A DNA stretch of 64,000 nucleotides from a virus, in IMG/VR virus record IMGVR_UViG_3300027985_000891, positions 1 through 64,000 of that record. One strand, 5' to 3'. Made by a program: the position numbers and the translations under genes. Under the pieces are notes generated by a model that saw only the letters and a list, made by a program, of their open reading frames with translations, had not been told where the DNA came from and did not search any database. Each line of letters starts with the position of its first letter. Within the stretch, counting starts at the first letter, position 1. Below are positions 2,726 to 22,309 of this stretch, piece by piece.

Positions 2726-5700
2726 CTATCTGGATAGTATGTAGTCTTGGAAGAATGTACTTTCTCCAAAGATCTTTTCAAATGTTCCCTTACTCTGATC
2801 CTGATTAAAGTATGCTGCCATACCAAGAATCTGATTGATACCAGGAATATTCTTAAGTGTGTAGTATCCAAAGGGTGTTTTATCTCTTGTGTTCTCCGGA
2901 GTAATTCCAATAGCTTGTGAACTTTCTACCAGGAAGTTCTCTATCATATTTGAAAAGTCAGTAGTTAAACGCATCACTGGTAATGGCGACTTCAATATCT
3001 CATTCACGGAATCCATACTAAAGAAGAAGCTTAATTCCAGTGATGCTCTTTGAGCTAACTTGTACATGTTATAGGTGAGTAGATTTTCATCCTCATCATC
3101 CCATCCTAGAGCTGACATTGCTCCTAGTAGTAATGTACTCATACCTAATAGGTATCTTAACTCTCTGGCCATGGTTCGCCACTGCCTTCTCCTGAAGTCT
3201 ATGAACCTTTCGAGTGTAAACTCTTTCTCATCCAGGTCAGGATTTTTCTTTAGAAAGTTTCTTCGATGTATTTCTGCTTTCTTCTCATCGATCTTATGTT
3301 TGTATAATCCCATGGTTATTACTTCAGACCCCAGGGAGATGAAGTTCTTTAATGTGGGTAAGATTAGATCACCAAAGATTGTACCCATACTCATGGACCA
3401 GGCTTCCTGCTCGGATCGTATGAGCTCCATAGACGGTAGTATCTCATCCTTAGTACCTATGAAGTGTCCTTGCTCATAGGATTCCAACAGAGGATTGTAT
3501 CTAAAACTACCAAATCTCTCCTTAATCAAGCCGGGCATCCAGTTTCGGAACTTCATCAACATCATACTAAGTACTTGCGTATTAGCTATATGCATCTGAT
3601 CTTCCGTGAGTGATCCCTTCACTCTATTCTGAGCTTCGGCTACCAGTCTTCTAAATCTGACAAACTCTTTCTCAGATATTCCTTCCAGTTTCATCACATC
3701 TCCGGAAGAATCAAATATTTCCCACAAAGTTTTAGCGTTCTCATCTTTTATTGGCTTTAATGGATCTCCTTTACTCTTTAACTTGCCATCACTATCCAAT
3801 ACCCAATGCTTCATCATTGCCAGAAGTATAGTATTGTCTACGTTATCGTCTCCAAAATACGGGTTATCCACATCGTATTTACTTTTTCCACGTTTGTTGA
3901 TAAGTCCGCGATGTAATGCAAAGACATTTCGCATGTTAAGCGCTTTGTTCGCTCCACTTACACTCTTTTTCAATGCTCTATCATACGATAGATCTCTACT
4001 GGATGGTTCAAAGAACCATATAGCAGCCAAAGTTTTCTCATCAGAAGAAGTAAATTGATCCAGTGCCTCCTTCCAGGTATTCTCACCAAAATATATACCC
4101 TTACCGGCTAGAATGTTTCTATTGATCTGAGCTCCAATGTTCGATGCACCGGCTAGAATAGGGTTAAGACCTAGTGCTTTGATGCTTAGAAAGTTCTGAG
4201 CTAATTGTATGATCTTGGTAGTAGAGTACACTTTATCTCCCATCCGGAATGTACTGTCCTTACTCTGGATTCGCTGACCATAGAGATGCAGCTTTATAAA
4301 CTTGTCAATGATTTCTTCTGTAGTATTGGAAGCTCCCATTCGTTTAGCCAAGGTACCGGTCAGCTTATTCAAGATAGGATTATTATATCGGTCGGTAGGT
4401 ATCTCCGTATATTGATCAAGAGTAACGATCTCTCGTAGTAACCTGATACTATCTTCCACTTCACTCTTGTAATGATAGTCCAGCGCTGATCTGTACATGA
4501 GTTTTAAAGACTGCGTTAAGTCTTTACTCTTATCAGCTACTCCTTTTTGGAAGGCTAATTCATTGACACGACGGTCTACTTCATCAAAGAATTGCTTGCT
4601 CCCCCTGGGTGCTTGTGTCGCTACATCATTTTCTATCTCTACTTTTTCTTTAGCAGTGACCTCCCTTTTAAGTTTATCCAAGTAAAGTATAGGTATCTTG
4701 TTGATAGGATTACCATCCTTATCTACTGTACCAAAGAGATGATCATACTCTCTTACTTCCAGTCCCCGATACATATCTTGCAATAGAGTATTTTCTTTGA
4801 ATACTCCAAGAGTCCCCATCTTCTCAATCGTAGATGCATGGATGTTGGCAACAAAATTATCTCTGATAACCTCATGTCCAATCATCTTATTCATCTCACG
4901 ATTGTACTTAGAGTACATCTCATAATATTTCATAGCCGGTTCATTACCAGGCTTGGATATGAATGCCCACTCATCTGAGATATAAGACGCTTGTGCTGGA
5001 TCCTTATGATCCTTTGGACGAATGTACCAGTTCTTGGTAGCAAACCATGCATTATTATTCTTCTTTGGATTGACCGCATCCATTTTCGAGAGCTCTCTCG
5101 CTCTGTCTTTCGGAGAGTAGGTTGGATTACCAGCTAGTAACTCTTTAACTTTGTCATAGTCTTCCTTCCATCGTTCTTCATTGAACTCGTAGTGACTTTC
5201 GAACCATTCTCTTTCTTTGGTAATATCTTCCTTGTTGTAATACTTTGTTCTTCCTTGCTCGGCAATCTTATTCTTCTCCTCATAAAATTCTTTCTTGAAC
5301 CTGGTAATTAGGTTTCCATCACTCGCTCGTATCAGAGGCTTGAAAGCATTGATGCCAGTAAATCCATTTCTCTTAGCCCAAGCTACATATTCATCATGTA
5401 CCGTATCAATACTTTCATCTTCTTCCAGCAATCTTCTGACTACTTTCTCTCGTTGTTCAGCCAATACAGTTCCTATGGTGAAAATAACCGGATGATTCCA
5501 CTCACTAATACCATCAAAAATCTGACCTAATCCTGTCTTCAACTTACCACCATCTAATAAACTTCTTTCACTCATGGTCTGGGCCAAGTCTATCAGCTTT
5601 TGATTGATGGTAACTCTGGCAGCATCCAACATATCATTGTAATATCTTATCCGCTGAATAACATCTTCCTTGTCTTCCAATTGATCGAGGGACTGCTTGA

Positions 5701-7843
5701 ATGCAGTGTTAAAAGTATCATATAGCTCAATAAACTCTTTGTACTCTAAGATCTGTCCTGCAGATAAGTTATTATTGTTCTCTACATCTTCTATGATAGA
5801 GGCTATGTCAGATAATGCTCCAGAGATATCCTGCTTAACTATCAGATCATTGATGGTATTATTAAGCTTACTCAATCGAGCATTCAGTTTCTTTTTCTTA
5901 TCTCCTTTTGAGATATTCACTTCAGCACGTAACTTGTTACGCTCCTGATATAACTTGTTGAGAAATATATTCAGGTTATCATCACCTGCTACTTGTTCAT
6001 CAGCTACTGTTAATTGATCCAGGTAATCCTTGTTTAAGCTTGGTCTGCCCATCTCCACTTTTTCAAAAGCCTGGTTGCCTCTTCGTCCACCAATCTTAAA
6101 CTGCATATTAATAGGTACGATCCTGGTTTCTCTAAAGTCTGAGTCCGTTAAGCCCCAGCTTTCTTTGAGTATACTCTTGTACTGTGACAACTGTAGATCA
6201 AACAATTGTCGCTTACTATCCTGTACCTCTGAGTAATCTTTAGTCTTGCTATTGAAAGGAAATCGCATGGACTTATAATCATAGATACCTATGGTACCAT
6301 CAGAATATATAACCATGACATCAATGGTTCCGGCGATATCATTTACCTGGTCTTTGGGATTATAAACCACTTGCTCAGTAAGGATCGTCGCTTTAGAGTC
6401 CTTCTCTTTGATATGAGTGTAAATACTTTTGACCCCATGGAATAGATCCGACCACTGGGTAGTAGAGAGCTTATAATACGAACGATCTTGAAAATTCTTA
6501 AACTCCGGCCTATCCTTGAGGTTATTGTAAACCAGGCTCTCAATCTGTTCCCGGTTAATATCCTTCGCATTTGAAAGGAGAGTTTCCATAATAAGCTGAT
6601 TATAGTTATGGAGGATCGTACCTTTCGTTGTGAAGTATTCTTTGTATTCTGGCGTGAACTCCTTCTGCCCGTAAATATATCTACCATAGTCCTGGACCTT
6701 ATCAGACGGCCTAAAACGTACCCACTTATCCAGTGAAGGAATGTAATAGCGGCCATCGCGATTCTCGAGCTTAAGTTCATTGACTTCCTTGATCTTATCC
6801 AGGATAAAGTTCTTCTTATCACTGTTAGGGGATATCTGATAAAAGATATCATCTCTTAATGTTTCTTGTAGACCTTCAACATTACCGGCCAATAGCTTCT
6901 CAGCTGACTTCCGGAACTCACTGATGTCTTGTTGTTTAAAAAGCTTTCTTAGATAGTCCAGTATAGCATTCCACCAATTCTTAAGCGTACCATCTGCATA
7001 CCGGTCCACTGCTACACTGGTAATCAGTTTAACAATGGCTTCTTCTGTAACCTTGGTAGGATCATAATTCTCCAGATCACCATAGGTTTCCTGTACCTCA
7101 TTATACACTGGAAACTTTTTGATCTGTTGAGCCATGGCATAGTAAGGAGCACTTCCTCTCATCATACTAACCATCAAGTGAGTAGCTTCTTCTGTCAATG
7201 TATCCAGTCCCTGTTTAGACTGTACAACCTCAATAACTTTGTTCAGTGTATTGACCCGGGCAGCTGCGTCATGCTCCAATTGACCTACCCATGACACTTT
7301 TGCGCCTACCGAATTGAGGAAATTACCTACCATTCTGTCCAATTCAGCATCCACTGGTATATTTTTGGCGGTCAGCTGAAAGCTAGGGTTGAATGGATTA
7401 TAGAACCTATTGTCTATCGTGAAGTAATAAGCTCCACTAGTTGCTCTTTTAACTTTCACATGCCCCAGGGAAGAGGCTCTAAGCTCCCTCTCTACAGCAG
7501 ATGAGTTAATTGTTCTGGGCATAAAGCCAGCATAGTTCATATTATACCGTTGCCCCAGCTTGGATAAGGTACCTTGAGTAGAGTTGGCATAGTATACTTC
7601 ATCAACAAAGGGAGATAAAATGTCTTTAGCTTGGCTATAAATAGCCTCACCATTGACATCCATCTCCCCCTCGTATAATCCACTAAACGATTTTGTATAC
7701 GTTTGAGCCCATAGGCGAACAGCTTGATCCTTGGTAATATCTAAAGAAGAAACAATATCTCTGTAGAGTATACTTGGTTTCTTATTCGGAGCATATACTT
7801 CTTCTATTTCTCCTTTCTTGTTTCGTTCAATGCTACATGCCAC
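2726..7843 (-). CDS. Giant virion protein with RecB-like nuclease and degenerate zincin motif
   Basis: 1,705 residues. The start is GTG at 7843, preceded by AAGGAAG, and overlaps the end of the polymerase gene by 11 bases. Residues 218-222 read EEATH in a context (TEEATHLMVSMM) like zincin HExxH helices, but with the first His replaced by Glu. Residues about 490-560 match the PD-(D/E)XK, RecB/Cas4-like pattern: a conserved Glu strand, GTIDV with Asp508, then DYK with Asp522 and Lys524, and a downstream QLSQY motif. The C-terminal third has several hydrophobic stretches, including one ending in LLLGAMSALGW, that could contact membrane. Crass-like phages encode similar large zincin/nuclease proteins next to the virion polymerase. 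An internal virion protein injected with DNA is inferred, as is the nuclease role; neither is shown by sequence alone. Confidence 0.8.
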   Translation of the reverse strand: MACSIERNKKGEIEEVYAPNKKPSILYRDIVSSLDITKDQAVRLWAQTYTKSFSGLYEGEMDVNGEAIYSQAKDILSPFVDEVYYANSTQGTLSKLGQRYNMNYAGFMPRTINSSAVERELRASSLGHVKVKRATSGAYYFTIDNRFYNPFNPSFQLTAKNIPVDAELDRMVGNFLNSVGAKVSWVGQLEHDAAARVNTLNKVIEVVQSKQGLDTLTEEATHLMVSMMRGSAPYYAMAQQIKKFPVYNEVQETYGDLENYDPTKVTEEAIVKLITSVAVDRYADGTLKNWWNAILDYLRKLFKQQDISEFRKSAEKLLAGNVEGLQETLRDDIFYQISPNSDKKNFILDKIKEVNELKLENRDGRYYIPSLDKWVRFRPSDKVQDYGRYIYGQKEFTPEYKEYFTTKGTILHNYNQLIMETLLSNAKDINREQIESLVYNNLKDRPEFKNFQDRSYYKLSTTQWSDLFHGVKSIYTHIKEKDSKATILTEQVVYNPKDQVNDIAGTIDVMVIYSDGTIGIYDYKSMRFPFNSKTKDYSEVQDSKRQLFDLQLSQYKSILKESWGLTDSDFRETRIVPINMQFKIGGRRGNQAFEKVEMGRPSLNKDYLDQLTVADEQVAGDDNLNIFLNKLYQERNKLRAEVNISKGDKKKKLNARLSKLNNTINDLIVKQDISGALSDIASIIEDVENNNNLSAGQILEYKEFIELYDTFNTAFKQSLDQLEDKEDVIQRIRYYNDMLDAARVTINQKLIDLAQTMSERSLLDGGKLKTGLGQIFDGISEWNHPVIFTIGTVLAEQREKVVRRLLEEDESIDTVHDEYVAWAKRNGFTGINAFKPLIRASDGNLITRFKKEFYEEKNKIAEQGRTKYYNKEDITKEREWFESHYEFNEERWKEDYDKVKELLAGNPTYSPKDRARELSKMDAVNPKKNNNAWFATKNWYIRPKDHKDPAQASYISDEWAFISKPGNEPAMKYYEMYSKYNREMNKMIGHEVIRDNFVANIHASTIEKMGTLGVFKENTLLQDMYRGLEVREYDHLFGTVDKDGNPINKIPILYLDKLKREVTAKEKVEIENDVATQAPRGSKQFFDEVDRRVNELAFQKGVADKSKDLTQSLKLMYRSALDYHYKSEVEDSIRLLREIVTLDQYTEIPTDRYNNPILNKLTGTLAKRMGASNTTEEIIDKFIKLHLYGQRIQSKDSTFRMGDKVYSTTKIIQLAQNFLSIKALGLNPILAGASNIGAQINRNILAGKGIYFGENTWKEALDQFTSSDEKTLAAIWFFEPSSRDLSYDRALKKSVSGANKALNMRNVFALHRGLINKRGKSKYDVDNPYFGDDNVDNTILLAMMKHWVLDSDGKLKSKGDPLKPIKDENAKTLWEIFDSSGDVMKLEGISEKEFVRFRRLVAEAQNRVKGSLTEDQMHIANTQVLSMMLMKFRNWMPGLIKERFGSFRYNPLLESYEQGHFIGTKDEILPSMELIRSEQEAWSMSMGTIFGDLILPTLKNFISLGSEVITMGLYKHKIDEKKAEIHRRNFLKKNPDLDEKEFTLERFIDFRRRQWRTMARELRYLLGMSTLLLGAMSALGWDDEDENLLTYNMYKLAQRASLELSFFFSMDSVNEILKSPLPVMRLTTDFSNMIENFLVESSQAIGITPENTRDKTPFGYYTLKNIPGINQILGMAAYFNQDQSKGTFEKIFGESTFFQDYILSR

Positions 7844-10800
7844 AATCTTCCTTGTTTAGTATATCATCAACTTCACTTCTTCTACTTTCTGTTGGTGCCG
7901 GCTTAGGATAATTCTGAGACTTCTTCTTAACATACTCGGAGAAGTCTGCATCTGGAAAATACTTCTTGGTACTATCGTTTCTAAAGTTACGAACAGTTCC
8001 CATCTTATCCTTGCTTAATAGTTGCCGGTTGAAATAATACTTAGTATCCGGTACCATACCACGACTGTCTGTCACTTTATATGCCGGCCAGCTATCTTTA
8101 ATAGCTCTCACACTACCAACACTCTTGAAGAACTGAGAATTATTCAAGAAGAACTCATGGTAAAAGTTCTGGAATGCTTTAGAATTTTGCTCCAATCCTT
8201 GCAGCGACCTGTGCATTATATCTGCATAGATAGCATTCGGCATAAGATCTATGAAGTTGATAGGACTGTTCTGTAGTCCGGATTGTAACCACAGGAATTC
8301 TCCCAGCTCCGTTGCCAGAGTAGGATGGGTAATCATTAATCTTTCCCACTCCTTAGTATAGATATCGCTATCCTCTTTGTCGATCTTAGAACCAGAGTTT
8401 ATTGATAAATTATCTATGGTTTGACCGGTGAAAGGATCTTTGATAGCCAGCTTAACTGAGAGTGCTTCAATGAATTCGTTAGGTGCTGCATCTCCTCTAG
8501 CTACCTGAGCTTTATAATCTTGTACTCGCTTGGGTACTGTACTATTTCGTACCTTGACACCATCAATCGTTTGAAAAGAATTGATCAGACTATTTCTACC
8601 TTTCAGATCAAGTTGTCGATGTACTATGTAGGTAATTAGATCACTTTTCATAGCATCAATCGTCTTCTCATACTCGAATTCATCCATGGTCAGTGAGACA
8701 AACTTATCTATCTGTTCCCTCAGCCCTGGGTTATTTAACGTCACCATGTACGGTGTGATCATATCCAGTAGATCCTTAACTGAACTATAGAATGGTTCGA
8801 GGAAAGAACCTTTGTCAAAGATTCGCTCATAGTTACCCAGTAATCCCTCATCGATAGTTTGCTCAGTAAGTTTGAGTCTGTGCATAAGCTGACCAGTATT
8901 CTTTCCACCAGCAGATGTATCATAGGATGTACCCCAGATAGCTCTACGTAAAGAATCAGATACATCTTCCAACATCATATACTGATCCAGAATAGCTAAC
9001 TGTGCAGCTTTCTCTGCATCGTTTAATTCCATGCCTTTACCCACTTTTTCAATCATATTTCTCATCTGGGTAAGTGACTTCATTGCCTTCTGAGGAGCAT
9101 TAGGTTTTGTTGCACTCTTATACTTGTTGGTAATTTTATCTACAAACTTCCAATCTGTCTTACCAGTAGTATATAGATAAGTACTACGACGTGCAGCCAA
9201 ACCTTTAATGTAATCATCGATGATCGGCTGATTCATAAAGGCTATCGCATCATTTACCGGAACACCAAGACGTATCAATAAAAACATAACGTTGGCTGAG
9301 ATAGGCCCACCATTGATTTGGAATATGAATGGGTCTTTCGCAGCATCCACATAGGCGTTAATCATTTCACTGAGCAAATCACTAATGTAATGTTTACCAT
9401 CAGTTGTCTTTAAACCTGCAAGGGAGGGTCGTATTTGACCCCCCTGCAGTGTAGAATTATGACTCAAGTATATATTTTTACCTCTAGGAAGATTGAGGTA
9501 AACATTAGCCTGTGAAAATAATATATGTGAGGTAGCATTCAAAGCCGCACGACCAATATTTTGCTTAGCATGTTGAAATTCTATACCCTTGTTGATTACA
9601 AAAGTAGGATCCACTATGTTATAAAGAGCTTGTGGATTGGTATCTCTGTTCTTTAAGTTGTTGATAATATTAGCCTGAGCTTTAAATGTATCAGTAGAGA
9701 TCGGGTTGATCAGTTCATCAAATCGTCTATAGTCTGATAACAATGCTTGATGCATCCTAAGCATCTCATTTTCTATGGCTTTCTTACCATTCTTCTCGTA
9801 GATATCCAGTTTGTCAAACTCTTCAAAAGCCTTTTCATATATTTGTTCAAGTGCATTATCCCTTTTAACTTTGGCAGCTTGAATCACGTCTTTATTTCTC
9901 CGCATGTTCTCCCGGATACGACTAGTTTCGATCAGGAATTCATTGAGTTCTTCAAGTTCATCATTGAAGCCCAGTTCTTCTTGAAGACTACTGAGAAGCC
10001 CATTTTCAATCAATTCCTTACGATTGAACGAGTAGTCCTGTATCGTATTAATAGCGTCATTAATGTTACTGACATCTATGCCCAATGCATGAAGCTTAGG
10101 TAACATCTTTTGTTGCCAAAGATCATAGCTAATCTTCTTACCTATGATTGCTTTGGAGATATCATTTTTATACTCCTCTTCTATTCGATCAATATCAGAA
10201 GCATACTCCGGGATTGAAAGAGAGAAGGATCTTTTTCTTCGTTCCCATATCTTGGATGGACTCTTGGTAAACTCGATGTAACGAGGTTGACCATTGATCA
10301 TTTCATAGTTTGGAAAATGCAAGAACATTTTATCAAAGTCAAAGTCAGAACCTGCTTTAGCTATTACTTCTGAAGGTACCACTACAATATCTCCGGACTG
10401 TGCTGGTAAGAATCCTTTTATTCTTATGTTCTCTATAGAGTTTAAGCCCTGAGTAGGAATCCGGAAACCTATTGCTTGTAATAGTCTCTTGTCCAAGGAT
10501 TGCAAATCAACTTGTTGACCTAGCATTTCTTTAAAGTAGTGAGGAAGATATACTTCCATGGCTCCTACTTTAGTTTCATATTCTTCTGGTTTATCCTTTA
10601 GTTCATTCCATTCTTCCTGAGTGTAGGTCTTGTTTCCTACTTTATATTCTACATCATAGAACTTAAGATCACTGCTTTTAAACTTACCATTTTCATAATT
10701 ACGTTTACCCTCCAGTTCAAAGAATGTAGAAGATACTTGTACACTAGACTTACCATGTTTCTTCTGAGATACAGTCATCTTATCAGAAATGGAGAATAGA

Positions 10801-13800
10801 ATGTTCTCTACTTTCTCACGATTAACCATGAAGTCAATACCTCGATCGATCCATCGTACACTATCAATCATATTCTCCGGTAGATCCCGGGCAATGAATT
10901 GTTCTTGTAAGAACTTCTGTACTTCAGGCAGCTTCTCTTTAGATATTTTAAAGAACCTTTCTCCTCCTACTTCCTCTTCTTCTAAACCCAACCTCTTAAT
11001 CAACTGCATAGTACCAGTAGTTTGTCTGGCTTTGTTGAGCTTTCTCAACTCATTGATCTGCCTGTAAGTAGCAGATTCTGCCAGTCTATCGGTCTGAGAG
11101 AGTTCCATCCAGTTACGAGCACGATCTCCCTGATCGGGTTGGAAATCAAAAGGTACACCTTGATAGAACAGATTGCTTTCTATTTGCTTTAGAAACTGTG
11201 TACCACTGGAAACATTACTCTTTTGTTTAGGAGAATTATTAACCTGAATACCCCAGTATTCATACGAAGTATCTTGTGTCAATAGAACATCATCTTTAAT
11301 ATTTCCCTCTGTATCATACATACTCTGGATCCCAGGGAGAGAGGGATTGTTTGCATCACCCAATCTGGTACCTAACTTGTTACCTGTAGAGAACACTAAG
11401 ATGCCAATCTTTTGTTTGTTCATCTTATCCGCTACCTTCTGTAGATTTCTAGTCTCCACCAGAGATGGTAGCAATGGCAATAATGATAGTTTATAGTAAC
11501 TATTGACGAAGAAATTGCTGTCTTTTATTGGACCGAAATATTGTGGCTTCATCGTTGGAAGAAAGTATCCGTCTTTCTCCACATCTGCCTGGGTAATCTC
11601 TCCTCCTCTAATCTCCTCATATGGACTGTTCTTAGGTCCTATCACTTGATTACCTTTCCATCCTCCTTGGATTTCCCACTGATAAGCAGCTTCTTGCTTC
11701 CAGTTCCATTCCCCTATTCGAAACTTAAACTCACGATACTCATCCAATGAGATGTATCCTTGAGCATCACTCTCTTCAATATCTCCATAAAATCTTTCCA
11801 CTTTAGAAGCAGCAGTAGCTCTGTCATATCTTCGATTAAGTATTTCTTCATAGAGTCCCTGCAATTCAGAGCTTACTTTAGGATCTGCTATCACTGCAGT
11901 ACGAATAATAGGATCTTCTTTGCCTAGCCCATTATCTACTAGGTACCTATTAGTATCCTCATCAATAGCTGGTAGTGTCTTGGTACCAACCATTCCAGAC
12001 ATACGCTTAAAGAAATCATCTAGTGATTTATACTGTGCCGGGTGACCAGTAAATATCTTTGTTTGTTCAATGTTACCAGCAATATAGTTAGACAAAAATA
12101 GCTTGGCAACTGTCTCTATTGGAAAATCCTTATACTCATGTAGTAATTTATCTCCAGCATCATCTGCTATTCTGGTTTCCCTAAAAGCAGGAATGATCCT
12201 TTTGTTTAATGTCTCTTGAAACCATTGAGTCATTCTATCTACTACTACCGGATTGTAAATGAACTCATCCAGTGTAATTTCTTCCAACACAAAATCTTCT
12301 ATGAGTGGTATGACTTCTGGTGAAGATAGTATAGACAACAGAATGCCTGACTGTATCAACTTCACATGATCGGGAGTTAAGGTGCCATCTTCAATAGCTG
12401 CTTGATAGTATTTAGGATAGCTGTCCAATCTAAGGTTGTTACCAAGATTATTCCATATGGAATAGTTCTGAGTATTACCTACATTGGCATCCTTTAATAC
12501 AATAGCTTCACTCTTTAGATACTCCAGTAACATATTCACCGGTGCACTGATACCCAGGTCATTATTGATATCTACTTCATTAATCGATAGAAACAATCCC
12601 CAGTCAAAGATTCTTTCCTGTTTATTATCAGCAGGTCGCAACATATGATAACGACCACCTAATGTGTTATTTACCTGAGCTATGAAGTTATCCTGGTAAT
12701 GGGTCTTTTGAAACTCTCGAGATCCGGAGTCTGCTGTACCCAGTCCCTCAAGTATATGTGTTTCCAACTGCTGGCCAGAAGCTAACTTTTTAAGTATGAT
12801 ACTGTCTGCAGAGTACGGATTGTTTAAATGTGGAAAACGATCGTAGATCATAGTGAGACCATCCTCCGGGCTTAATCCTAGAAACTTGATCTCTTCTGCT
12901 ATTTTATTAAGTTCATTATTGACATACTTATGATAGGTATACTGACTATTATCATATCGAGTCTTACCATTATATGCAATGTGTGAGTTTTCAATAGCAT
13001 CCAGTGTAGTTTGATAAGCTATTTCTATAATGTTATTAATCCGACCCTGAACATTTGACGGTTCCCATATCGTTACAGTTTGACCTGCTTCCGGATCGAA
13101 CACTTCAATCTCCCGTCCTCGATAAGGATTATATCCTTTCCGTACATAGTCTGCTACCCAGGTCATATGTTCTGCAAACTCTGTTCGAGTACGATCATCC
13201 ATTAAATATGCACCAGGTAAATCTATACCTATAGCTGCAGCTTGTGCAAGGGCTTCATCATATGTGAGAAGACCACCTGAGTCCAACTTTGCAGCTGTCT
13301 CCTGTAGAATAATTGGTGTAAAGTTCGCATCCCAGTCATTCATCATTTTCCTACGTTGACCGGCAGTAGATACTTTGATGTAACTATGTGCTCCTCCTCT
13401 GTCCACAATGATTCGACTGAATAGATCTCTACCTTTAGAGAAGGCCTGGAAGAACTGCATCTTTCGTTGCATTTGAGATGCAGTCAACCGGTTGGAAGGT
13501 ACATTGAGATGAAAGTATTTGTTCAATAAAGTAGTGGCAGGCATCATGCGTATCAGTTCCTCTACTTGTTCGTTCATCTCGTCTATCGAAGTGGTATTAG
13601 CCAGTTTATTGGATAGAATACTGAACATCTTACTGAAGTCTTCATACACTTCAAACTCTAAATCATTTTGTTCAATATTACCTTCCCGGTCGACTTTTGG
13701 AATGATTGACAGCCAGAGCTTGACTTGATTAGAGACAGTCTTCTTTCCACTAACCTCTCCACTGACTTCACTCCATTGATTGTCCATATCAATACCTTCT

Positions 13801-16800
13801 ACATCTTCCTCAGTGTCAGGAAGTTCCGGTATATCTATGTCAACTCGTAATTGCGATAGATGTTCCTGGTGCATTTCAACCACACTAGGACCTTCAGACG
13901 TATAAAAGTTATCCAGGATCCATTCACGTGCTTCCAGCAATTTAAAGCCATGAGCATACTGATAGGAATCTTCTGGTATTTTGTCAAGAGCAGCATACAA
14001 TTGGTCTACTTGCTCTTGGATATTTCCTCGTACATTTTCATAGAGACTCTTTAATAAACTACCATCAATAGTATTAGAGATGATCTCTTCCATTAACTGT
14101 CCTTCCGGAATACTTTCCCAGAACATATAGTTGATACCTTCTACCACATCTCGTGAGAATGTTGCATCTTTATCTTTAAAGGATCTATTCTTATCTTCAT
14201 GTATCCGGCTAAAGTCTGGCTTGAACTTTGAATAGTATCCATTATTAATATTTTCAAAGACTTCATGTATCGTTACGGGTTGTATGCCAAGTATCCATTT
14301 AAGGAAATTGAGGAGCCTTGCAAAGAAATTAGGCGTCTTCTTGCCGTAAATTGTTTCTCCGGTAAGGACGAAGTCCCTAAATGCCTCGGCAAGTACCTCT
14401 TCTATTTCACTATCGTTCAAGCTCGTATCACCGGTCGTCTTACGATAGTCGTCCAGGACGTTGCGAACTTCCCGCGGCGATAGATAGAGTCCCATGACTG
14501 CGTGAAAAGCTTCATGATAGGTTGTACCTATTTCTGCTGAAGGATCAATGAGTACCTCTCCCTGGGATGTGAATCGTCCCCAGGCTCCGGACTTAGCCAG
14601 ATCATATGCTACTTTAAAAGGTACACCTGGAAAACGTTCTTCAAACCATGCCTGTGCTTGATTTAGATCCTCATAAATAAAGTTACTACCATACTGTACA
14701 GTACGATTTTTGGATCCAAACTTCTTCTTAGGAATGAAGTTAGACTTACCAAATGCTTTTTTTGCCTCAGCTTCAGGTATGACAGTAGGTTTAGGATCGG
14801 CATCAGGCGTTGCTGTAAATTCTCCACCTATTTCTCCTAGTGCATCATTCATAGCTGCCATCATAGCAGCATCTAGCACAGGTGATCCGGGTGTTTTCTT
14901 TGTTCGGGTAGCCGGTTTAGGCTTCGATTGACGTCCGGTCGGGACTTTGGTACTTGTTTTCCCTGGTACTTCATCATAACCAGGATTGCTATAATCAAAA
15001 TATACATTACTGTTTTTCTTCTGAGGTTGGGAAACGTCATCCGTGTATTTTGGTAATGTTGATTCTAATACAGCCAGGTCCGGGTTAAGCAAATAGTCTT
15101 TATAACTTGGATGCTTGTTAAAGGTGAATTTCTTATTAGCTTCGCTCCATGCTACTTGGGTGTATTCTCCTGTCTCACTTGTACTACGTACTTGATGATA
15201 TTGTTTATCTAACCACTCTCTTAAAGCTGGTTCAGATTCGACCAGATCTTTTAAATCCATAGGACCAAGTCCTTCAAGATACATTTGCCCTGTAAACTTA
15301 TCTGTTCTAAGATCTGTCTTCTCGTAAATATATCCTCCTGTGTTGTTAACTGTTTCAGGTGAATAATGAAGATATTCCTTTAGTACTTCTTTGATAGTTC
15401 TTTTACCAAGTTCATCCAAACGAACTTCAAAAGGATTCTTCTCATAGGATAGCTCATTGGCTTTCTTCAATAGCTCAATGATTGTGTTCTTCTCCTGTTC
15501 ATTTAATTGACGAGGATATACTTGATTGATCTGACCAGATAATAGATCTCTCAGATATACTGTACCAGGAGTTACACTAAAGTTCCTCCCTTGAAATACC
15601 AATTGGTTTTTCTTAGCAACAACTATCTCACTTTTCTGAGGATTAATCACTGTTCCTATGGCAGGCTTTCGAGTATCTTCTATAGGCCTACCTACAGACT
15701 TGGACGTGGCATTTAAATAAACAGCAGTATTGGCATTGAGATTCTCTACAATAGCTTCACGAGCCTTCATGAATCTCTTCTTGGATTCTTCTAATTCTTC
15801 CGGTGTACCATCATAACGTTCACCATTATTATATATAGTATTGGTATTTCCATCCGGAAAGGTTGTAAAGATTCCATAGTTAAGTACATCTATTGGATTC
15901 TCTGATTGTATCTGCTCACGATAAAGATTGACCGGTCGTTTCTCATTGTCTACAATGACAGCAAAAATCATATTGTTGACCGTCTCTTCATATTTATCTC
16001 CGAGACTATCTCTAAGTCTTTGTTTCTCTACATCTGTCAGTAGTACACTCCACTCTGTAGGTTTGCCATTAATAGCATAAGGTACCAGTTTGACATAGAG
16101 TTTATTACCGGTAAAAGAAGTAGTCTCTACAAATTTGAAGTACCGTTGATGGTGTTCAAGATCTGTAATGGTATCTCCATCAAAGTGTCTACCTCTCAGA
16201 AAATTAAATGCATCCTGAGCTGATTTTTTAGGATTAAACTCTGAAGTCTTTAGGTTGTTTCGTACATCTTCTCCTTTGTCTACCTTTTGTGTATTTTTTT
16301 TAGGATATGCTATACGTTCTATTTCATCCAGATCGGCGAGCTCCTTATTAATGGGTTCGATCTGTTGCAATAGTTGATTGACATCATCTTTGTGTTTTTG
16401 CAACAAACGATCATACTGCTCTTTCTTTCTAGCCTGCTTGACAAGCTCATTGATGTCATCATCATTTAACTTCTCCGCTCTGGAAAGGACATCATTAATA
16501 TATGCTTGATCGTTTAGTTTGTCTTTGGGAACGTCAAAGAACTTTAAAAGATCTTCAGTGATCTCATCTACTTTCTTTTGAATATCGTTACGATTAGCTA
16601 TAGCTTCAGCTATTAACCATCTTAATCCCTTGGTATTGTCACTTCCATCCAGGATGGCATTTAACTCATTCTGCCGGTTAACTAGATTCTCACCGGCAAT
16701 ATCATCCATTTGATTCTTATAATACTGAATGTCCTGATCCGCTTGTTCTACATCTGCTTGAATCTTATTCAGCTCAGCTTCGATAGGTTGCAGGTCAGCA

Positions 16801-19595
16801 TTGACCTCCTGTAATCGGGCATAATGTTTCTTGGGTTGAAATTGTTTTTGCCGGAAGTCGCGCTGTATCTCATTATAAATCTCCCTCAATGCTACAGCAT
16901 CATCTCCCAGCTTTTTAGTCTGAGCAGCAAGACTTCTTTTATGAGCTTGCAGTTGATCGATCTTCTTGCCAAAGAACTCTTCAGCAGCTGACTCAAATTT
17001 CTTTGCTTTCTTCCTAAAAGCTTCTCGATCCAGTTTGGTTGGCTGATTAAGGGATGCCAACTCTATTTCATTAGATCGCATCTTATCTTTAATCTTCTCT
17101 ATTTGTGTAAGAAGATTATCCATTCCTCTAATGGTTAAAGCATCTTCTGTTCTCCCGGTTAATGTCTCAGCCAAACGGTTATAAGTTGCTTCATGATTAG
17201 CTAATGCATTAGCCAGTCTGACATTGTCATCTGCCAGTTCTTTTTTCTTTTCTTTAATAGCACCTTGCTCCCGTTTATTTTGATAAATAGTATCATCCAA
17301 TATCCGGTATCCATTGTTTTGCATCCACTCCATTAACTCATAGCGACTAAATCCTTTACCGTTATTGTTGTTTTGATTAGTCTGAAGTAATGCTCCTATC
17401 TCTTCTTTCTTAGCTTGCTCTACTGCTCTCTCTTTACGAGTTAAAGCTTCTCCTCCATTCTTTATCTTATTAGCTACTTGTGCCAGTCTTCCATCCGATA
17501 TCGTACCAGATTTGGTAAACTTTTCATACTCCTCATCTGTAAAAGGATCTGTAGTAGCAGGTAGATCAGGATTGCCAGTCTTCTTCAACATAAACTTATC
17601 TTCCATTGCGGCAATGTCCCACTGATCATTATCCTTGGCCAGGACTACTCCTTCTCCCAGGAAATTAGATAGATACTCTTCATATTCTTTACGTTCTTCA
17701 CCTTTTTTCTTATCTATCTCTTGCAGTAATTTAAGTTGACCGGCATCTGTCTTAACTAAGGCTACTGCTTTTTTAAGTTCTTTTAATTTAAGATCAGCTT
17801 TTTCTATATCTCGAATGGTATTCCTGATCTTGTCATCGGCACTAGTACTCAGTAGATTACGTAAATCAGTATCACTTAAGTTTTTAGGATGTTCTTTAAT
17901 GGCAGTTTCCAACTCAGACTTGACCTGTTCTCTTCTGGCTTTGTAAGCTCTCTCATCACCATCAAACTCACTTCTCATTTGACCTGAATCATAGAGTGTA
18001 TTCAGATCATATAGTCTCTTAAGATCACGTGTATCAGAAGGTAACTCTGATTCACTCTGTTGACCTATAGTTGTATCATAGTCATTTAACAGCTTGTCTT
18101 TAAGTTTGGAAGTTTGCTTAAGATCCCAGGCATCAAGAATCATCTGAGTCTTGAGTTGTCGATTGGTATCTTCTATATTCTCAAACTTTTCCTTACGAGT
18201 ATAGTCAGGCCTGTTCTGTACCCGGTTAAAGATCTCCTCGAACTCAGGTATCTGTTCAAGATATCTTTGAACTTTAGCATGCTCATCTCCATCTGTTTCT
18301 TCTAATCTTGCTTTGAGCATATTCTCCATCTCTGACATCGTTCCACGTGAAGCGTGTTGGAATGCCATAGACATGAACTTTTTATCCCGGTAGTAGTCTG
18401 ACTTCGTTTCATCCCCCAGGGAGGCGAGCTGCTCCATCATGTTAGCTTCCTCCTTTACCTTATCTATACCCATGATTTTATCATAGGCATAGCTTATTCC
18501 ATCCATGGCAACAGGCATAGCCATACCAGTCACTGCACCTAAGAATGCTGATGTCCAGAGTTCTTCATTTCTTGCATAGTCACTAAAACGCTCACTTATA
18601 CCCTTTCCCCAAATAGCTCCTGGTTCAATTGTACCCTCAGCTATACCTTTAGCTTCTTCACTGGTAATAAATTGATATGCTTCTTCTGCTCCTTCAAAAG
18701 GTGCCTGCTTAAGTCCCTCCAGAAATACATTGGACTTGGTCTTACTTCGAGAGAAGACAGAAGCAAGTGCTTTATTTCCTGCACCAAATAGAAAAGCATA
18801 CTGAAAGAAATCAGTGGCGAGTAGTGCAGTATTATCTCTGTAAGACTTAGCAGCTCCTTCTCCTGCAGCTTCTTCACTTAATCCTTGTCGTATAAGCTCA
18901 TCATAAGTTTGATTTGCTTCCATCAGTGACTCGGCATGTCGAGAAGTAATAGCTGCCGCCATGCCCTGGGTTGCTATCTTAGCTGTTTGAGATATACGAG
19001 CCGCTTTAAGTGCAGTACCTGCAGCCTTACCTACGAATCCAGAAGGTATCATAAGAGATAAGGCAGTTCCAACTGTGCCAGAGTTCTTAGCCCACCATCT
19101 ACCAGATAGTGGGTTGAACCCTTCACTCCATGGACTATCATAAACAGGAGCTATATCTTCGGAAATAGTTTGCTTTGCTTCTCGAGCCCAGCGACTCAAT
19201 TCATTGTCAAACTCTTTAGTCCCTTCACTCCATGCTTCAGTCCAGTTGGGTATATCTGCCAAATATCCCACAGCTTCAATAGTACCTAATACAATTTCAG
19301 AACCTATCTGAGTAATCGCATTACCAAGCAACTCCATGGGTCCTTGATTATGTGCTGCAAAATACTCTCGATTATGTATAGTAGGAATATAGCCTTTAAG
19401 ATCATTTGTAAGTCTACCTTGAAACAAAGGATTAGACTGTAATTGTGCATGAGTCTCAGGTTTATCACCTTTCATTACACCATACAGCATTTGTGCATCT
19501 TCAGGATTTAAACCTACTATATCATTCTGTGTAATAGGATCAATAGTTCCTGACTTTAGCACACCTTCAAGAGGTGGAAGATTTTCTAAAGGCAT
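7833..19595 (-). CDS. Giant crAss-type virion RNA polymerase fusion protein with zincin protease domain
   Basis: 3,920 residues. ATG at 19595 overlaps the upstream stop (TAATG). The N-terminal 380 residues hold several hydrophobic segments; about 380-1110 is charged, coiled-coil-like sequence; a proline/lysine-rich linker lies near 1550. HEAFH at 1694-1698 is an intact zincin metalloprotease motif. RIPTQ at 3045-3049 and DFDFD at 3084-3088 match the catalytic double-psi barrel loop (DxDxD, magnesium-binding) of crAss-like phage RNA polymerases, which travel in the virion and transcribe early genes after injection. This family is related to cellular and RNAi-type polymerases. The length is far above single crAss polymerase proteins, so this is probably a fusion of what other members encode separately. 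Self-processing by the zincin domain is an inference. The gene ends in TAG. Confidence 0.88.
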   Translation of the reverse strand: MPLENLPPLEGVLKSGTIDPITQNDIVGLNPEDAQMLYGVMKGDKPETHAQLQSNPLFQGRLTNDLKGYIPTIHNREYFAAHNQGPMELLGNAITQIGSEIVLGTIEAVGYLADIPNWTEAWSEGTKEFDNELSRWAREAKQTISEDIAPVYDSPWSEGFNPLSGRWWAKNSGTVGTALSLMIPSGFVGKAAGTALKAARISQTAKIATQGMAAAITSRHAESLMEANQTYDELIRQGLSEEAAGEGAAKSYRDNTALLATDFFQYAFLFGAGNKALASVFSRSKTKSNVFLEGLKQAPFEGAEEAYQFITSEEAKGIAEGTIEPGAIWGKGISERFSDYARNEELWTSAFLGAVTGMAMPVAMDGISYAYDKIMGIDKVKEEANMMEQLASLGDETKSDYYRDKKFMSMAFQHASRGTMSEMENMLKARLEETDGDEHAKVQRYLEQIPEFEEIFNRVQNRPDYTRKEKFENIEDTNRQLKTQMILDAWDLKQTSKLKDKLLNDYDTTIGQQSESELPSDTRDLKRLYDLNTLYDSGQMRSEFDGDERAYKARREQVKSELETAIKEHPKNLSDTDLRNLLSTSADDKIRNTIRDIEKADLKLKELKKAVALVKTDAGQLKLLQEIDKKKGEERKEYEEYLSNFLGEGVVLAKDNDQWDIAAMEDKFMLKKTGNPDLPATTDPFTDEEYEKFTKSGTISDGRLAQVANKIKNGGEALTRKERAVEQAKKEEIGALLQTNQNNNNGKGFSRYELMEWMQNNGYRILDDTIYQNKREQGAIKEKKKELADDNVRLANALANHEATYNRLAETLTGRTEDALTIRGMDNLLTQIEKIKDKMRSNEIELASLNQPTKLDREAFRKKAKKFESAAEEFFGKKIDQLQAHKRSLAAQTKKLGDDAVALREIYNEIQRDFRQKQFQPKKHYARLQEVNADLQPIEAELNKIQADVEQADQDIQYYKNQMDDIAGENLVNRQNELNAILDGSDNTKGLRWLIAEAIANRNDIQKKVDEITEDLLKFFDVPKDKLNDQAYINDVLSRAEKLNDDDINELVKQARKKEQYDRLLQKHKDDVNQLLQQIEPINKELADLDEIERIAYPKKNTQKVDKGEDVRNNLKTSEFNPKKSAQDAFNFLRGRHFDGDTITDLEHHQRYFKFVETTSFTGNKLYVKLVPYAINGKPTEWSVLLTDVEKQRLRDSLGDKYEETVNNMIFAVIVDNEKRPVNLYREQIQSENPIDVLNYGIFTTFPDGNTNTIYNNGERYDGTPEELEESKKRFMKAREAIVENLNANTAVYLNATSKSVGRPIEDTRKPAIGTVINPQKSEIVVAKKNQLVFQGRNFSVTPGTVYLRDLLSGQINQVYPRQLNEQEKNTIIELLKKANELSYEKNPFEVRLDELGKRTIKEVLKEYLHYSPETVNNTGGYIYEKTDLRTDKFTGQMYLEGLGPMDLKDLVESEPALREWLDKQYHQVRSTSETGEYTQVAWSEANKKFTFNKHPSYKDYLLNPDLAVLESTLPKYTDDVSQPQKKNSNVYFDYSNPGYDEVPGKTSTKVPTGRQSKPKPATRTKKTPGSPVLDAAMMAAMNDALGEIGGEFTATPDADPKPTVIPEAEAKKAFGKSNFIPKKKFGSKNRTVQYGSNFIYEDLNQAQAWFEERFPGVPFKVAYDLAKSGAWGRFTSQGEVLIDPSAEIGTTYHEAFHAVMGLYLSPREVRNVLDDYRKTTGDTSLNDSEIEEVLAEAFRDFVLTGETIYGKKTPNFFARLLNFLKWILGIQPVTIHEVFENINNGYYSKFKPDFSRIHEDKNRSFKDKDATFSRDVVEGINYMFWESIPEGQLMEEIISNTIDGSLLKSLYENVRGNIQEQVDQLYAALDKIPEDSYQYAHGFKLLEAREWILDNFYTSEGPSVVEMHQEHLSQLRVDIDIPELPDTEEDVEGIDMDNQWSEVSGEVSGKKTVSNQVKLWLSIIPKVDREGNIEQNDLEFEVYEDFSKMFSILSNKLANTTSIDEMNEQVEELIRMMPATTLLNKYFHLNVPSNRLTASQMQRKMQFFQAFSKGRDLFSRIIVDRGGAHSYIKVSTAGQRRKMMNDWDANFTPIILQETAAKLDSGGLLTYDEALAQAAAIGIDLPGAYLMDDRTRTEFAEHMTWVADYVRKGYNPYRGREIEVFDPEAGQTVTIWEPSNVQGRINNIIEIAYQTTLDAIENSHIAYNGKTRYDNSQYTYHKYVNNELNKIAEEIKFLGLSPEDGLTMIYDRFPHLNNPYSADSIILKKLASGQQLETHILEGLGTADSGSREFQKTHYQDNFIAQVNNTLGGRYHMLRPADNKQERIFDWGLFLSINEVDINNDLGISAPVNMLLEYLKSEAIVLKDANVGNTQNYSIWNNLGNNLRLDSYPKYYQAAIEDGTLTPDHVKLIQSGILLSILSSPEVIPLIEDFVLEEITLDEFIYNPVVVDRMTQWFQETLNKRIIPAFRETRIADDAGDKLLHEYKDFPIETVAKLFLSNYIAGNIEQTKIFTGHPAQYKSLDDFFKRMSGMVGTKTLPAIDEDTNRYLVDNGLGKEDPIIRTAVIADPKVSSELQGLYEEILNRRYDRATAASKVERFYGDIEESDAQGYISLDEYREFKFRIGEWNWKQEAAYQWEIQGGWKGNQVIGPKNSPYEEIRGGEITQADVEKDGYFLPTMKPQYFGPIKDSNFFVNSYYKLSLLPLLPSLVETRNLQKVADKMNKQKIGILVFSTGNKLGTRLGDANNPSLPGIQSMYDTEGNIKDDVLLTQDTSYEYWGIQVNNSPKQKSNVSSGTQFLKQIESNLFYQGVPFDFQPDQGDRARNWMELSQTDRLAESATYRQINELRKLNKARQTTGTMQLIKRLGLEEEEVGGERFFKISKEKLPEVQKFLQEQFIARDLPENMIDSVRWIDRGIDFMVNREKVENILFSISDKMTVSQKKHGKSSVQVSSTFFELEGKRNYENGKFKSSDLKFYDVEYKVGNKTYTQEEWNELKDKPEEYETKVGAMEVYLPHYFKEMLGQQVDLQSLDKRLLQAIGFRIPTQGLNSIENIRIKGFLPAQSGDIVVVPSEVIAKAGSDFDFDKMFLHFPNYEMINGQPRYIEFTKSPSKIWERRKRSFSLSIPEYASDIDRIEEEYKNDISKAIIGKKISYDLWQQKMLPKLHALGIDVSNINDAINTIQDYSFNRKELIENGLLSSLQEELGFNDELEELNEFLIETSRIRENMRRNKDVIQAAKVKRDNALEQIYEKAFEEFDKLDIYEKNGKKAIENEMLRMHQALLSDYRRFDELINPISTDTFKAQANIINNLKNRDTNPQALYNIVDPTFVINKGIEFQHAKQNIGRAALNATSHILFSQANVYLNLPRGKNIYLSHNSTLQGGQIRPSLAGLKTTDGKHYISDLLSEMINAYVDAAKDPFIFQINGGPISANVMFLLIRLGVPVNDAIAFMNQPIIDDYIKGLAARRSTYLYTTGKTDWKFVDKITNKYKSATKPNAPQKAMKSLTQMRNMIEKVGKGMELNDAEKAAQLAILDQYMMLEDVSDSLRRAIWGTSYDTSAGGKNTGQLMHRLKLTEQTIDEGLLGNYERIFDKGSFLEPFYSSVKDLLDMITPYMVTLNNPGLREQIDKFVSLTMDEFEYEKTIDAMKSDLITYIVHRQLDLKGRNSLINSFQTIDGVKVRNSTVPKRVQDYKAQVARGDAAPNEFIEALSVKLAIKDPFTGQTIDNLSINSGSKIDKEDSDIYTKEWERLMITHPTLATELGEFLWLQSGLQNSPINFIDLMPNAIYADIMHRSLQGLEQNSKAFQNFYHEFFLNNSQFFKSVGSVRAIKDSWPAYKVTDSRGMVPDTKYYFNRQLLSKDKMGTVRNFRNDSTKKYFPDADFSEYVKKKSQNYPKPAPTESRRSEVDDILNKEDCGM

Positions 19596-22309
19596 TATTG
19601 TAAAGTTACTTCGTTTGCATATTTAATATCAAAGTGATGTCCGACAGTAGGTACCTTCTTAATTACATTACCAGCAGCATCTCTAATCAAGTTCATGTTT
19701 TGATGCCAGGTTACAGCAAAAGGTGTATTTGGTATCCGATGGTAAGATGTCTCAGTACCACTAACCTTCTTAAGACCAGGTACGTTTGTCATAAACCATT
19801 CATTCAGATCCTTATCATGACCTGTTAAATCTATGGTCCTTCCTTTGCCCGCAGTTGGATCACCCATTCGAAATGCGGACGTGATCTTATAACCGTTGGG
19901 TAAAATAGGATCCATAGTTGTTGCCCAGTCTTGATTGAACTGCTTGGATAAATTCATATCAATACGTCGACCTTGATTATCTGTACCTATGATCGCATTC
20001 TTGAAATTAGCAGACCCATCTTCTCGTCCATCTCCATCAGCATCAATAACAGCTTGTTGTATCTTTTGCAAGTTTAGCTCTGCATGTTGATTATCATCTA
20101 CTAAGACAAAAGGTTTCTGATCATCTACTTTAACTACGTATCCCATAATACCTGTAGAAGGATCTCTCCCCTGGGTTATGTTGACTGTATGTCCTGCGCC
20201 TACTCCTTTACTCAGAGCATCCATAAATATGATTCCCTTTCCAGCAGAATAAGGTTCAACTATTTCCAGTTTACCTGTAGCCGTTTTAGTAGAATCTTCT
20301 CCATACTCTATGACCGTAGTATCAATAGGTCCTTGAGCTCCTTCATACTTACCTAATCTAACGCCAGATAGATTTCGTTGTATTCTTGAAATCGTCTCAA
20401 TAGGAACTGGATAACCCGTCATGGATTGAATAACAGCAGTTTGATCTACCGGTACTTTAGTTCCTACTCCACTTACTGCATTATTATATAGAGAATTACC
20501 GCCTTTGTAACGTTGACCAGCTGCTGATTGTAACCATGTATCTTCTCGCTTTGCTGCAAATTGTATTACCTCGCCTTCCGGAGTAGTAAATTCCATATAA
20601 TAAGGAGCCGCACCAAAGACAGATGCATTCTGAACTATTTGGTTTCCTTGTTTAGCAACCATAGGTAATATGTTTCTAGGATCAATAATACCTGGTATGG
20701 ATGTAGCTTCTCTCATTTTACTTTCAGAACTATCATAGTCTTTAAAATATCTATGCTTTAAATCCTGTCCTGTTAACATCTCACCAGTTGCTATATTGAT
20801 TAGTTGTTGAGCACCTAACTGATCATAAAATTGTTTAACTACACTTTCATTCGATGTAGCTGTAGAAAATACTCCATCATCTTTTATATCTGGAAAAGAT
20901 GTAACTATGATGCCCGTATTAATTCTTTCACTTGCTTTTTCAGCAAACTTTTCCAATGCTTGTTTACCATCCTTGGTTAATATATTATCTGATGTTAAAT
21001 ATTTATCAAGAGGTACATCTGTATTACTTCCAGTTACTGCGTTTACTGCTATCTGTAGTGTGGTCTTCATTTCTGGAGTCAATGGTTGACTACCTGGTAG
21101 ATCAGATGGTTGAATAGATAGATCGGATCCAAAACCAGTAACACCTATTAACTTACTAGAGTATTCTTCACTATTTTTAAAAGGATTAAATACATTCTTA
21201 GCTTCAATAGCCATAGTAGGTACAGCATCTACTGCACCTACCCAGTTTTGTACTGTAGCTTCTGGAGTATATAGTGGAGAGTTAGCAGCATCTCCATTTG
21301 CTGCTTCTGTATCTATTTTAGGTGTAGAGCCTAGTTTGACATCATGAGACTGTAAAGATTCTGCCAACATGCCGGCATAATTAGTAGCATAAGTTTCATA
21401 GTCACCTGGATCAGGTGCTACTCCATCTGCTGCTAGTTTTCTTTGTAATTCCCACTTGGCATGAATGGTCCTTGAATAGTTTTGTATCACATCATTGGCA
21501 AATTCTTGCCGTCTGTCTCTACTGGTCTGAAAAATTTGTCGAATGCCATCTCCCATATCCATCATTTGAGGAAGTCCCCATTCTTCTTTCTTAGTATTCC
21601 ATATAGTTTCTTTCATCTTCTTTAGAGAAGGATGAAGCATATCATACTTTTGATTGACATCACTACCTGAATAGTTTAACATACCCATACTGAACAACTC
21701 AGCATCATAGTCTTCAGGTGTCTTCTTAAAAGTATCTATTTGTTGTTGATGATAGGTAGCTTGTTCAAAGGCTTTACGATAAGCATCACCTTCTACTTTG
21801 GATAAATCAGCTCTAAGTTTATAATACTGCTCCGGATCAATATTAGCCAGGTCACCCTTGATAGCAGACATGAACTCACTGATCCTTTCTACTTTGGCCA
21901 CATGTACATCTTGCAATGCTTTCTGTTGAGCAGCAGTATGGAAGTTTGTAGGTAGACCGTATTGAGATGCTGCACTCTTTGATACACCGGTACTCATCTG
22001 ATCTCCCATCAGTCCATCAAAGATTTCTATAAGCTTAAGCGAATTAAATGCTTTGTTTTGTTGAGTCTTTAAATCGAACTCTGACTTCCAGGCTTCTTTT
22101 CTCCAGGCAAGTTCATCTTCATGTAGGGCCAGTTGATCTCTTTGTATTTGTTGTTGCCTTAAACGCAAAGCAGTTTCTACACCTACATCAACTGGCATAG
22201 AGGCTACCTGAATAAGCGGAGCCATATTTTGTTGTTCCATGAGAGGAGCCTGTATAGGAGCTACTCCTCCTTGTTGATAGTTGAGCACATGCTCAGGTAC
22301 ATTTCTCAT
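19595..22309 (-). CDS. Large cargo-type internal virion protein, 904 aa
   Basis: ATG at 22309, 2 bases after the upstream stop; its own stop overlaps the polymerase start. The N-terminus has YQQGG at about residues 11-15, the same motif repeated in the upstream 1,131-aa protein. Residues about 50-260 are Gln/Glu/Lys-rich and helical. Near 20040 the protein contains a DADGDGREDG loop that resembles calcium-binding loops. The last 100 residues contain SAFR, GRTIDL and GHHFDI segments reminiscent of M15/M23-type peptidoglycan peptidases, but the usual first zinc ligand is not clear, so that reading is weak. Position between the muzzle and polymerase genes fits one of the cargo proteins packed in the crAss tail barrel. 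Function is otherwise unrecognised. Confidence 0.72.
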   Translation of the reverse strand: MRNVPEHVLNYQQGGVAPIQAPLMEQQNMAPLIQVASMPVDVGVETALRLRQQQIQRDQLALHEDELAWRKEAWKSEFDLKTQQNKAFNSLKLIEIFDGLMGDQMSTGVSKSAASQYGLPTNFHTAAQQKALQDVHVAKVERISEFMSAIKGDLANIDPEQYYKLRADLSKVEGDAYRKAFEQATYHQQQIDTFKKTPEDYDAELFSMGMLNYSGSDVNQKYDMLHPSLKKMKETIWNTKKEEWGLPQMMDMGDGIRQIFQTSRDRRQEFANDVIQNYSRTIHAKWELQRKLAADGVAPDPGDYETYATNYAGMLAESLQSHDVKLGSTPKIDTEAANGDAANSPLYTPEATVQNWVGAVDAVPTMAIEAKNVFNPFKNSEEYSSKLIGVTGFGSDLSIQPSDLPGSQPLTPEMKTTLQIAVNAVTGSNTDVPLDKYLTSDNILTKDGKQALEKFAEKASERINTGIIVTSFPDIKDDGVFSTATSNESVVKQFYDQLGAQQLINIATGEMLTGQDLKHRYFKDYDSSESKMREATSIPGIIDPRNILPMVAKQGNQIVQNASVFGAAPYYMEFTTPEGEVIQFAAKREDTWLQSAAGQRYKGGNSLYNNAVSGVGTKVPVDQTAVIQSMTGYPVPIETISRIQRNLSGVRLGKYEGAQGPIDTTVIEYGEDSTKTATGKLEIVEPYSAGKGIIFMDALSKGVGAGHTVNITQGRDPSTGIMGYVVKVDDQKPFVLVDDNQHAELNLQKIQQAVIDADGDGREDGSANFKNAIIGTDNQGRRIDMNLSKQFNQDWATTMDPILPNGYKITSAFRMGDPTAGKGRTIDLTGHDKDLNEWFMTNVPGLKKVSGTETSYHRIPNTPFAVTWHQNMNLIRDAAGNVIKKVPTVGHHFDIKYANEVTLQ

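Follow-up and report, generated by a model that had tools for sequence, protein, structure and literature searches.

For described relatives of the phage considered here, the packaging of an RNA polymerase in the virion and its transcription of the early genes are established (PMC7886860; PMC10172136), and in crAss001 the virions contain the proteins discussed below, for which partial unfolding is considered necessary on the way through the tail (PMC10172136). In phi14:2 (Steigviridae) the polymerase block is encoded by three separate genes, g067 (1,797 aa), g066 (2,180 aa, the polymerase gp66 of structure 6VR4) and g065 (1,421 aa), of which the first two have no HExxH motif. Other deposited genomes divide the same parts differently. 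An N-terminal part, an HExxH zincin and the polymerase form one chain in cr1_1, cr55_1 and cr10_1 (Suoliviridae; single ORFs of 4,460-4,551 aa with HExxH and DFDxD) and in cr108_1 (Steigviridae); the fused chain of these four carries a C-terminal cysteine, and their g065-like gene is separate where it can be seen. In p-crAssphage (Intestiviridae) the cut falls between zincin and polymerase, with g066 and g065 joined in one gene; the existing annotation of its gp45 reads 'RNAP associated protein fused to zincin protease', and gp45 and gp44 together hold the same parts as the two proteins described next. A review mentions RNA polymerase genes as large as about 6,000 aa (PMC10136315).

The window, by which we mean the whole stretch of DNA analysed, corresponds to bases 1-64,000 of a viral record that is 124,898 bases long. 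Its ORF list and translation confirm P0001 as a single ATG-to-stop ORF of 3,920 aa at 7833..19595; it is encoded on the minus strand, a point that the earlier note that first drew attention to it had left out. The motifs HEAFH (residues 1694-1698, 14502-14516, minus strand) and DFDFD (residues 3084-3088, 10332..10346, minus strand) are where that note placed them, and each occurs once in the chain. By homology P0001 is composed of a g067-like part, a zincin and a g066-like polymerase, and as such it stands in for g067 and g066, while the associated protein, the g065 homologue, is a separate gene: P0002, 1,705 aa, 2726..7843 on the minus strand (tblastn to cr108_1 gp052, 3e-109). The GTG start of P0002 overlaps the end of P0001 and is consistent with the N-termini of its relatives. 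The block resembles that of phi14:2 in polymerase fold, catalytic loop and order of parts, but differs from it in the fusion of g067 to g066 and in its loop, which is DFDID in phi14:2; the loops of cr1_1, cr55_1, cr10_1 and cr108_1 (DFDVD, DFDID or DYDID) also differ from that of P0001.

The polymerase part of P0001 extends over about residues 1916-3821 (8133..13850, minus strand). A phmmer search of PDB sequences returned one match, phi14:2 gp66 (6vr4_A, 1.8e-35), with DFDFD aligned to the DFDID loop, and DFDxD is invariant in an alignment of nine phages. The AlphaFold model of residues 2480-3670 (pLDDT 82.6, pTM 0.82), compared with known structures by Foldseek, likewise gave one significant match, again 6vr4_A (1,235 columns, E 2.4e-36, TM 0.64 by query); it is through this whole-model match, rather than strand-level tracing, that the gp66 fold with its two double-psi beta-barrels is recognised. 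The same genome has PHROG matches to the crAss-type major head protein, portal and TerL, its TerL is nearest to that of phi14:2 (36%), and its gene order, that of the Crassvirales series, agrees with phi14:2 and cr108_1. Since phi14:2 gp66 is the sole PDB match both by sequence and by predicted fold, we regard the identity of P0001 as a crAss-type (gp66-like) virion RNA polymerase, as the earlier note had proposed, as settled. By homology with phi14:2 and crAss001, P0001 and P0002 would be carried in the capsid, be forced through the tail in an at least partly unfolded state and transcribe the early genes.

The fused layout itself is widespread. Scans of viral contigs with the window polymerase or P0002 alone returned no relatives; a scan with a polymerase alignment gathered 80 related viral contigs, in 69 of which zincin and polymerase share one ORF. 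The 55 of these that are complete at both ends measure 3,107-5,114 aa (median 4,191 aa), and 40 exceed P0001 in length. Among predicted ORFs a giant fusion of this type is thus ordinary in this part of the Crassvirales, and the earlier impression that known members are separate and shorter does not hold. The same fusion in 69 of 80 contigs and in the deposited cr1_1, cr55_1 and cr10_1 led us to reject a chance ORF or an assembly fusion of two genes; an intron or frameshift inside P0001 was also rejected, the ORF being free of stops and the window without an Rfam match. On the tree (all tree counts given here rest on FastTree) the contig L024 adjoins the window with full support, and the two have the DFDFD loop in common. 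Phenylalanine as fourth loop residue is therefore unusual, as had been supposed, in that it occurs in one of the 80 relatives, but it is not peculiar to this genome.

Upstream of the polymerase, the N-terminal cargo part of P0001 (about residues 1-1599, 14799..19595, minus strand; tblastn, phmmer) includes a stretch, residues 79-234 (18894-19361, minus strand), conserved with p-crAssphage gp45, crAss002 gp32 and cr108_1, and, as regards the coiled coil of the earlier note, charged and helix-forming residues abound at about 550-1100; PHROGs and Pfam searches of P0001 gave nothing useful. A membrane-like N-terminus had been suggested, which hydropathy does not bear out: within this part the highest 19-residue Kyte-Doolittle mean reaches 1.38, at residue 346, and the peak of the entire chain (1.71) falls inside the polymerase. 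P0003 (904 aa, 19595..22309, minus strand), upstream in the same gene series and in a position like that of the upstream cargo genes of relatives, has no cysteine. In P0002, residues 403-568 (window 6140-6637) give a weak Pfam PD-(D/E)XK match (E 0.006, below the cut-off) whose motif residues are retained in cr108_1, L024 and cr1_1; domains of the PD-(D/E)XK type have been mentioned for these crAss-type proteins (PMC7886860). Convergent with the polymerase block, a plus-strand protein at 2-2725 of the window is made of many short LTADSGTYTLTGTDASL-type repeats.

The zincin-like domain that the earlier note had placed between N-terminal part and polymerase is present, at about residues 1644-1791 (14223..14666, minus strand). 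HExxH and a downstream EExxxE are conserved in nine phages (in P0001, HEAFH at 1694 and EEVLAE at 1732, 14385-14402, minus strand), so that the sequence offers both the zincin motif and a downstream glutamate as candidate third ligand, as expected of a gluzincin of the M34-like kind. The high-confidence AlphaFold model has strands, then the HExxH helix, then a later helix with the glutamates. Foldseek with this model found no significant match; in a second structural aligner (VIA), M34-type zincins fill the first 16 rows at modest Z scores of 5.2-6.0, and a profile search of the zincin part reached PPEP/Zmp1 only at E about 0.5. A second zincin-like stretch occurs in P0002 at residues 218-222 (window 7178-7192), reading EEATH; EExxH is also found at this site in cr108_1 and crAss001 gp49, and the nearest relative, L024, has HEIMH.

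What sets the block apart is its cysteines. P0001 and P0002 hold two in 5,625 residues, Cys3918 of 3920 (codon 7842..7844, minus strand; the third residue from the C-terminus) and Cys3 (codon 7835..7837, minus strand), each the sole cysteine of its protein and each at most three residues from the junction. The other ORFs of the window average 24 per 1,000 aa, a rate at which these two proteins would hold about 135, and the chance that two randomly placed cysteines both fall within three residues of this junction is about 1e-6. In the opposite sense, a 1,938-aa minus-strand protein at 40950-46766, with Ser-rich linkers, contains 153 cysteines, in contrast with the near-cysteine-free cargo proteins.

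The same arrangement recurs across the 80 contigs, for which start codons were chosen by rule (the first ATG among the first candidates) and in which these proteins have an internal cysteine density of 0.12 per 1,000 aa. A cysteine lies within the last 12 residues of the polymerase ORF in 75/75 ordinary cases and among the first residues of the ORF that follows in 72/72, whereas the outer, far end of the associated-protein ORF has one in 0/51 complete long cases. An N-terminal cysteine is found in 22 of the 23 rows in which the N-part is a separate gene, against 0/45 in which it is fused; this association involves seven changes on the tree, although the contigs are related and the strictly independent contrasts on supported branches number only five. 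Where the break has shifted upstream of the zincin, in the L036 group, the cysteine pair is found at the shifted break; where the associated protein is encoded in two pieces (L027, L051, L075), the short first piece ends in a cysteine and the second begins with one; and where g066 and g065 are fused, in L018, there are 0 cysteines in 4,206 aa.

Named phages follow suit. In phi14:2, g067 ends in a cysteine, g066 begins MAC and ends ECK, and g065 begins MSC, so that both junctions have terminal cysteines; gp47 (262.5 kDa, Cys2339), gp50 (276.9 kDa, Cys5 and Cys2404) and gp49 (154.5 kDa, Cys5) of crAss001, which sum to about 694 kDa, have the same pattern. In crAss001-type contigs the cysteine at the end of g067 is present although the gene lies on the opposite strand, which argues that gene adjacency is not the cause. 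Contigs of the Intestiviridae type have a g067 ending in cysteine and a fused g066-g065 that begins with one and has none at its far end. In L145 the 6,675 aa of open frame contain just two cysteines, and these sit at the junction. In Flavobacterium phage Fpv3 the one cysteine of gp32 is residue 4286 of 4287 and Cys3 is the only cysteine in the 1,056 residues read of gp33. As further observations, Fpv3 gp30 has a lone cysteine at residue 5, and p-crAssphage gp47 ends SCR. Gut phages have more internal cysteines, and as such the terminal pair is less exclusive in them. From the predicted proteins we show that in the Crassvirales the facing ends of separately encoded pieces of the block almost always carry one cysteine each, that fused junctions and the two outer ends of the block have no terminal cysteine, and that this rule still holds when the gene order is inverted or the break point has moved.

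Most of the exceptions trace, on inspection of the sequences, to frameshifts or introns and not to gene borders. The break without a pair in L066 is a one-base difference from L071 within an A-run; that in L048 has no start codon nearby, and reading continues in another frame. In cr108_1 (L002:20254-20572) a group I intron, which P0001 does not share, lies within the catalytic DYDID loop of the polymerase with no pair at the break, and gp054 and gp053 are consequently one gene; the breaks in L118 and L119, at or near the same loop, are probably introns. For crAss002 gp33 the annotated start lies upstream and the first cysteine is residue 35. In two further contigs, L142 and L151, a clear cysteine pair is lacking at the break, which counts against the coupling proposed below.

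In its layouts the polymerase block behaves like one serial chain, g067-g066-g065, encodable as one, two, three or more ORFs. It is reasonable to postulate that facing terminal cysteines join its separate pieces head to tail, the simplest bond being a disulfide. Such pairing would make the block a single covalent chain during packaging and ejection; the chain would travel N-terminus first, and the reducing cytoplasm of the host would break the link and free the subunits. Gene fusion, as in P0001, could then be the permanent equivalent of the cysteine clip, and if fusion and coupling are interchangeable, the block may for that reason be cut at different places in different phages. Head-to-tail cysteine coupling of separate parts into one chain, probably by disulfide, is the explanation that we favour, and we hold it with somewhat better than even confidence. 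As for the chemistry, a disulfide is the simplest form, and there is room for another cysteine-based link: the cytoplasm in which assembly takes place is reducing and the gut hosts are anaerobes, so that a disulfide would form late, or the link would be of another kind. The crAss001 virion does contain disulfides between other subunits (PMC10172136). We rejected an intein or split intein as the source of the terminal cysteines, as the few residues between them and the ends leave no room for an intein.

Other accounts of these cysteines can be given. Each might act alone, for example by anchoring its protein to some other protein of the virion, by binding a metal or by linking two copies into a homodimer. 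This would sit well with P0004 (22312-25707), whose only two cysteines both fall among the six C-terminal residues (CNCYHW) and lack an evident partner, an observation that counts against a linked chain, and a loose anchor could tolerate the variation in position, from residue 3 to 8. However, it gives no account of cysteines on both facing ends, of their lack at fused junctions and outer ends, or of a pair that tracks a moved break point, and we consider it unlikely. That the cysteine codons are instead a nucleotide-level feature of tightly packed gene borders, for example a translational coupling signal, is suggested by the many genes here that overlap or almost touch and by the two codons of the window, which lie within 10 bases of each other. 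Yet the upstream cargo gene abuts the fused ORF, and this P0001/P0003 border has no cysteine pair, and in crAss001 and its relatives g067 ends in cysteine despite its inverted position away from g066; on the inverted genes we reject this origin, to which we assign a very slight probability. There is also little probability that the locus is just an ordinary fused crAss-type polymerase and the terminal cysteines functionless quirks inherited by related phages. The fused layout is indeed common and the sequences are indeed related, but the pair comes and goes with gene breaks in seven changes on the tree and in at least four deep groups and Fpv3, against a background of almost no internal cysteines.

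A different account makes the zincin, through HEAFH, cleave the fused chain in the virion or at entry and so free the polymerase from its N-terminal cargo, much as the earlier note had supposed for host entry. The domain is placed for such a role, between cargo part and polymerase, its HExxH and EExxxE are kept in nine phages in a zincin-like predicted arrangement, and crAss001, p-crAssphage and relatives have a gene break just after it. Against this, 33 of the 80 zincin-like rows (L017-L096), nearly all in fused ORFs, have HExxE instead of HExxH. The first glutamate of EExxxE is Lys or Arg in 33/33 HExxE rows and Glu in 45/47 HExxH rows, which we read from the alignment as a coupled charge swap that changed five times on the tree. 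Since an HExxE motif might still bind metal, we do not call these forms dead, nor is the point decisive. Where phages have truly separate genes and a zincin, HExxH is kept, contrary to what a need for self-cleavage of fused chains would predict, and phi14:2 g067 and g066 do without the motif altogether. Judged on these sequences, the HExxH form is not needed for the fused layout; self-processing is unsupported, fused chains carrying either form, and cleavage of this kind seems to us rather doubtful.

Among the systems with which the polymerase block of the Crassvirales may be compared is the giant polymerase of N4, which is of another fold class than the crAss-type. N4 gp50 is likewise delivered with the DNA and also has an HExxH domain (PMC12633501), and in P23-45 a giant polymerase chain is delivered with the DNA but is fused to the tape measure protein (PMC10770324); the portions of these two sources that we consulted do not describe terminal-cysteine coupling for either. 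Open-licence papers, searched for ejected phage proteins coupled through terminal cysteines or disulfides, gave no such case, a scope that cannot prove the rule unreported. The novelty here lies in the cysteine-capped junctions, the giant fused ORF alone being ordinary for this part of the Crassvirales.

In practice, the cysteine rule is of use in flagging frameshifts and introns in giant genes and in showing which proteins work in series. We think it fairly probable that delivery of the polymerase block, in the Crassvirales and in some close relatives, takes the form of a Cys-Cys-linked train in which fusion and coupling are interchangeable. If the proposal is true, such a covalent train, its clips being removable, would explain in part how the viruses most abundant in the human gut pass a very large protein cargo in the right order through a narrow tail.
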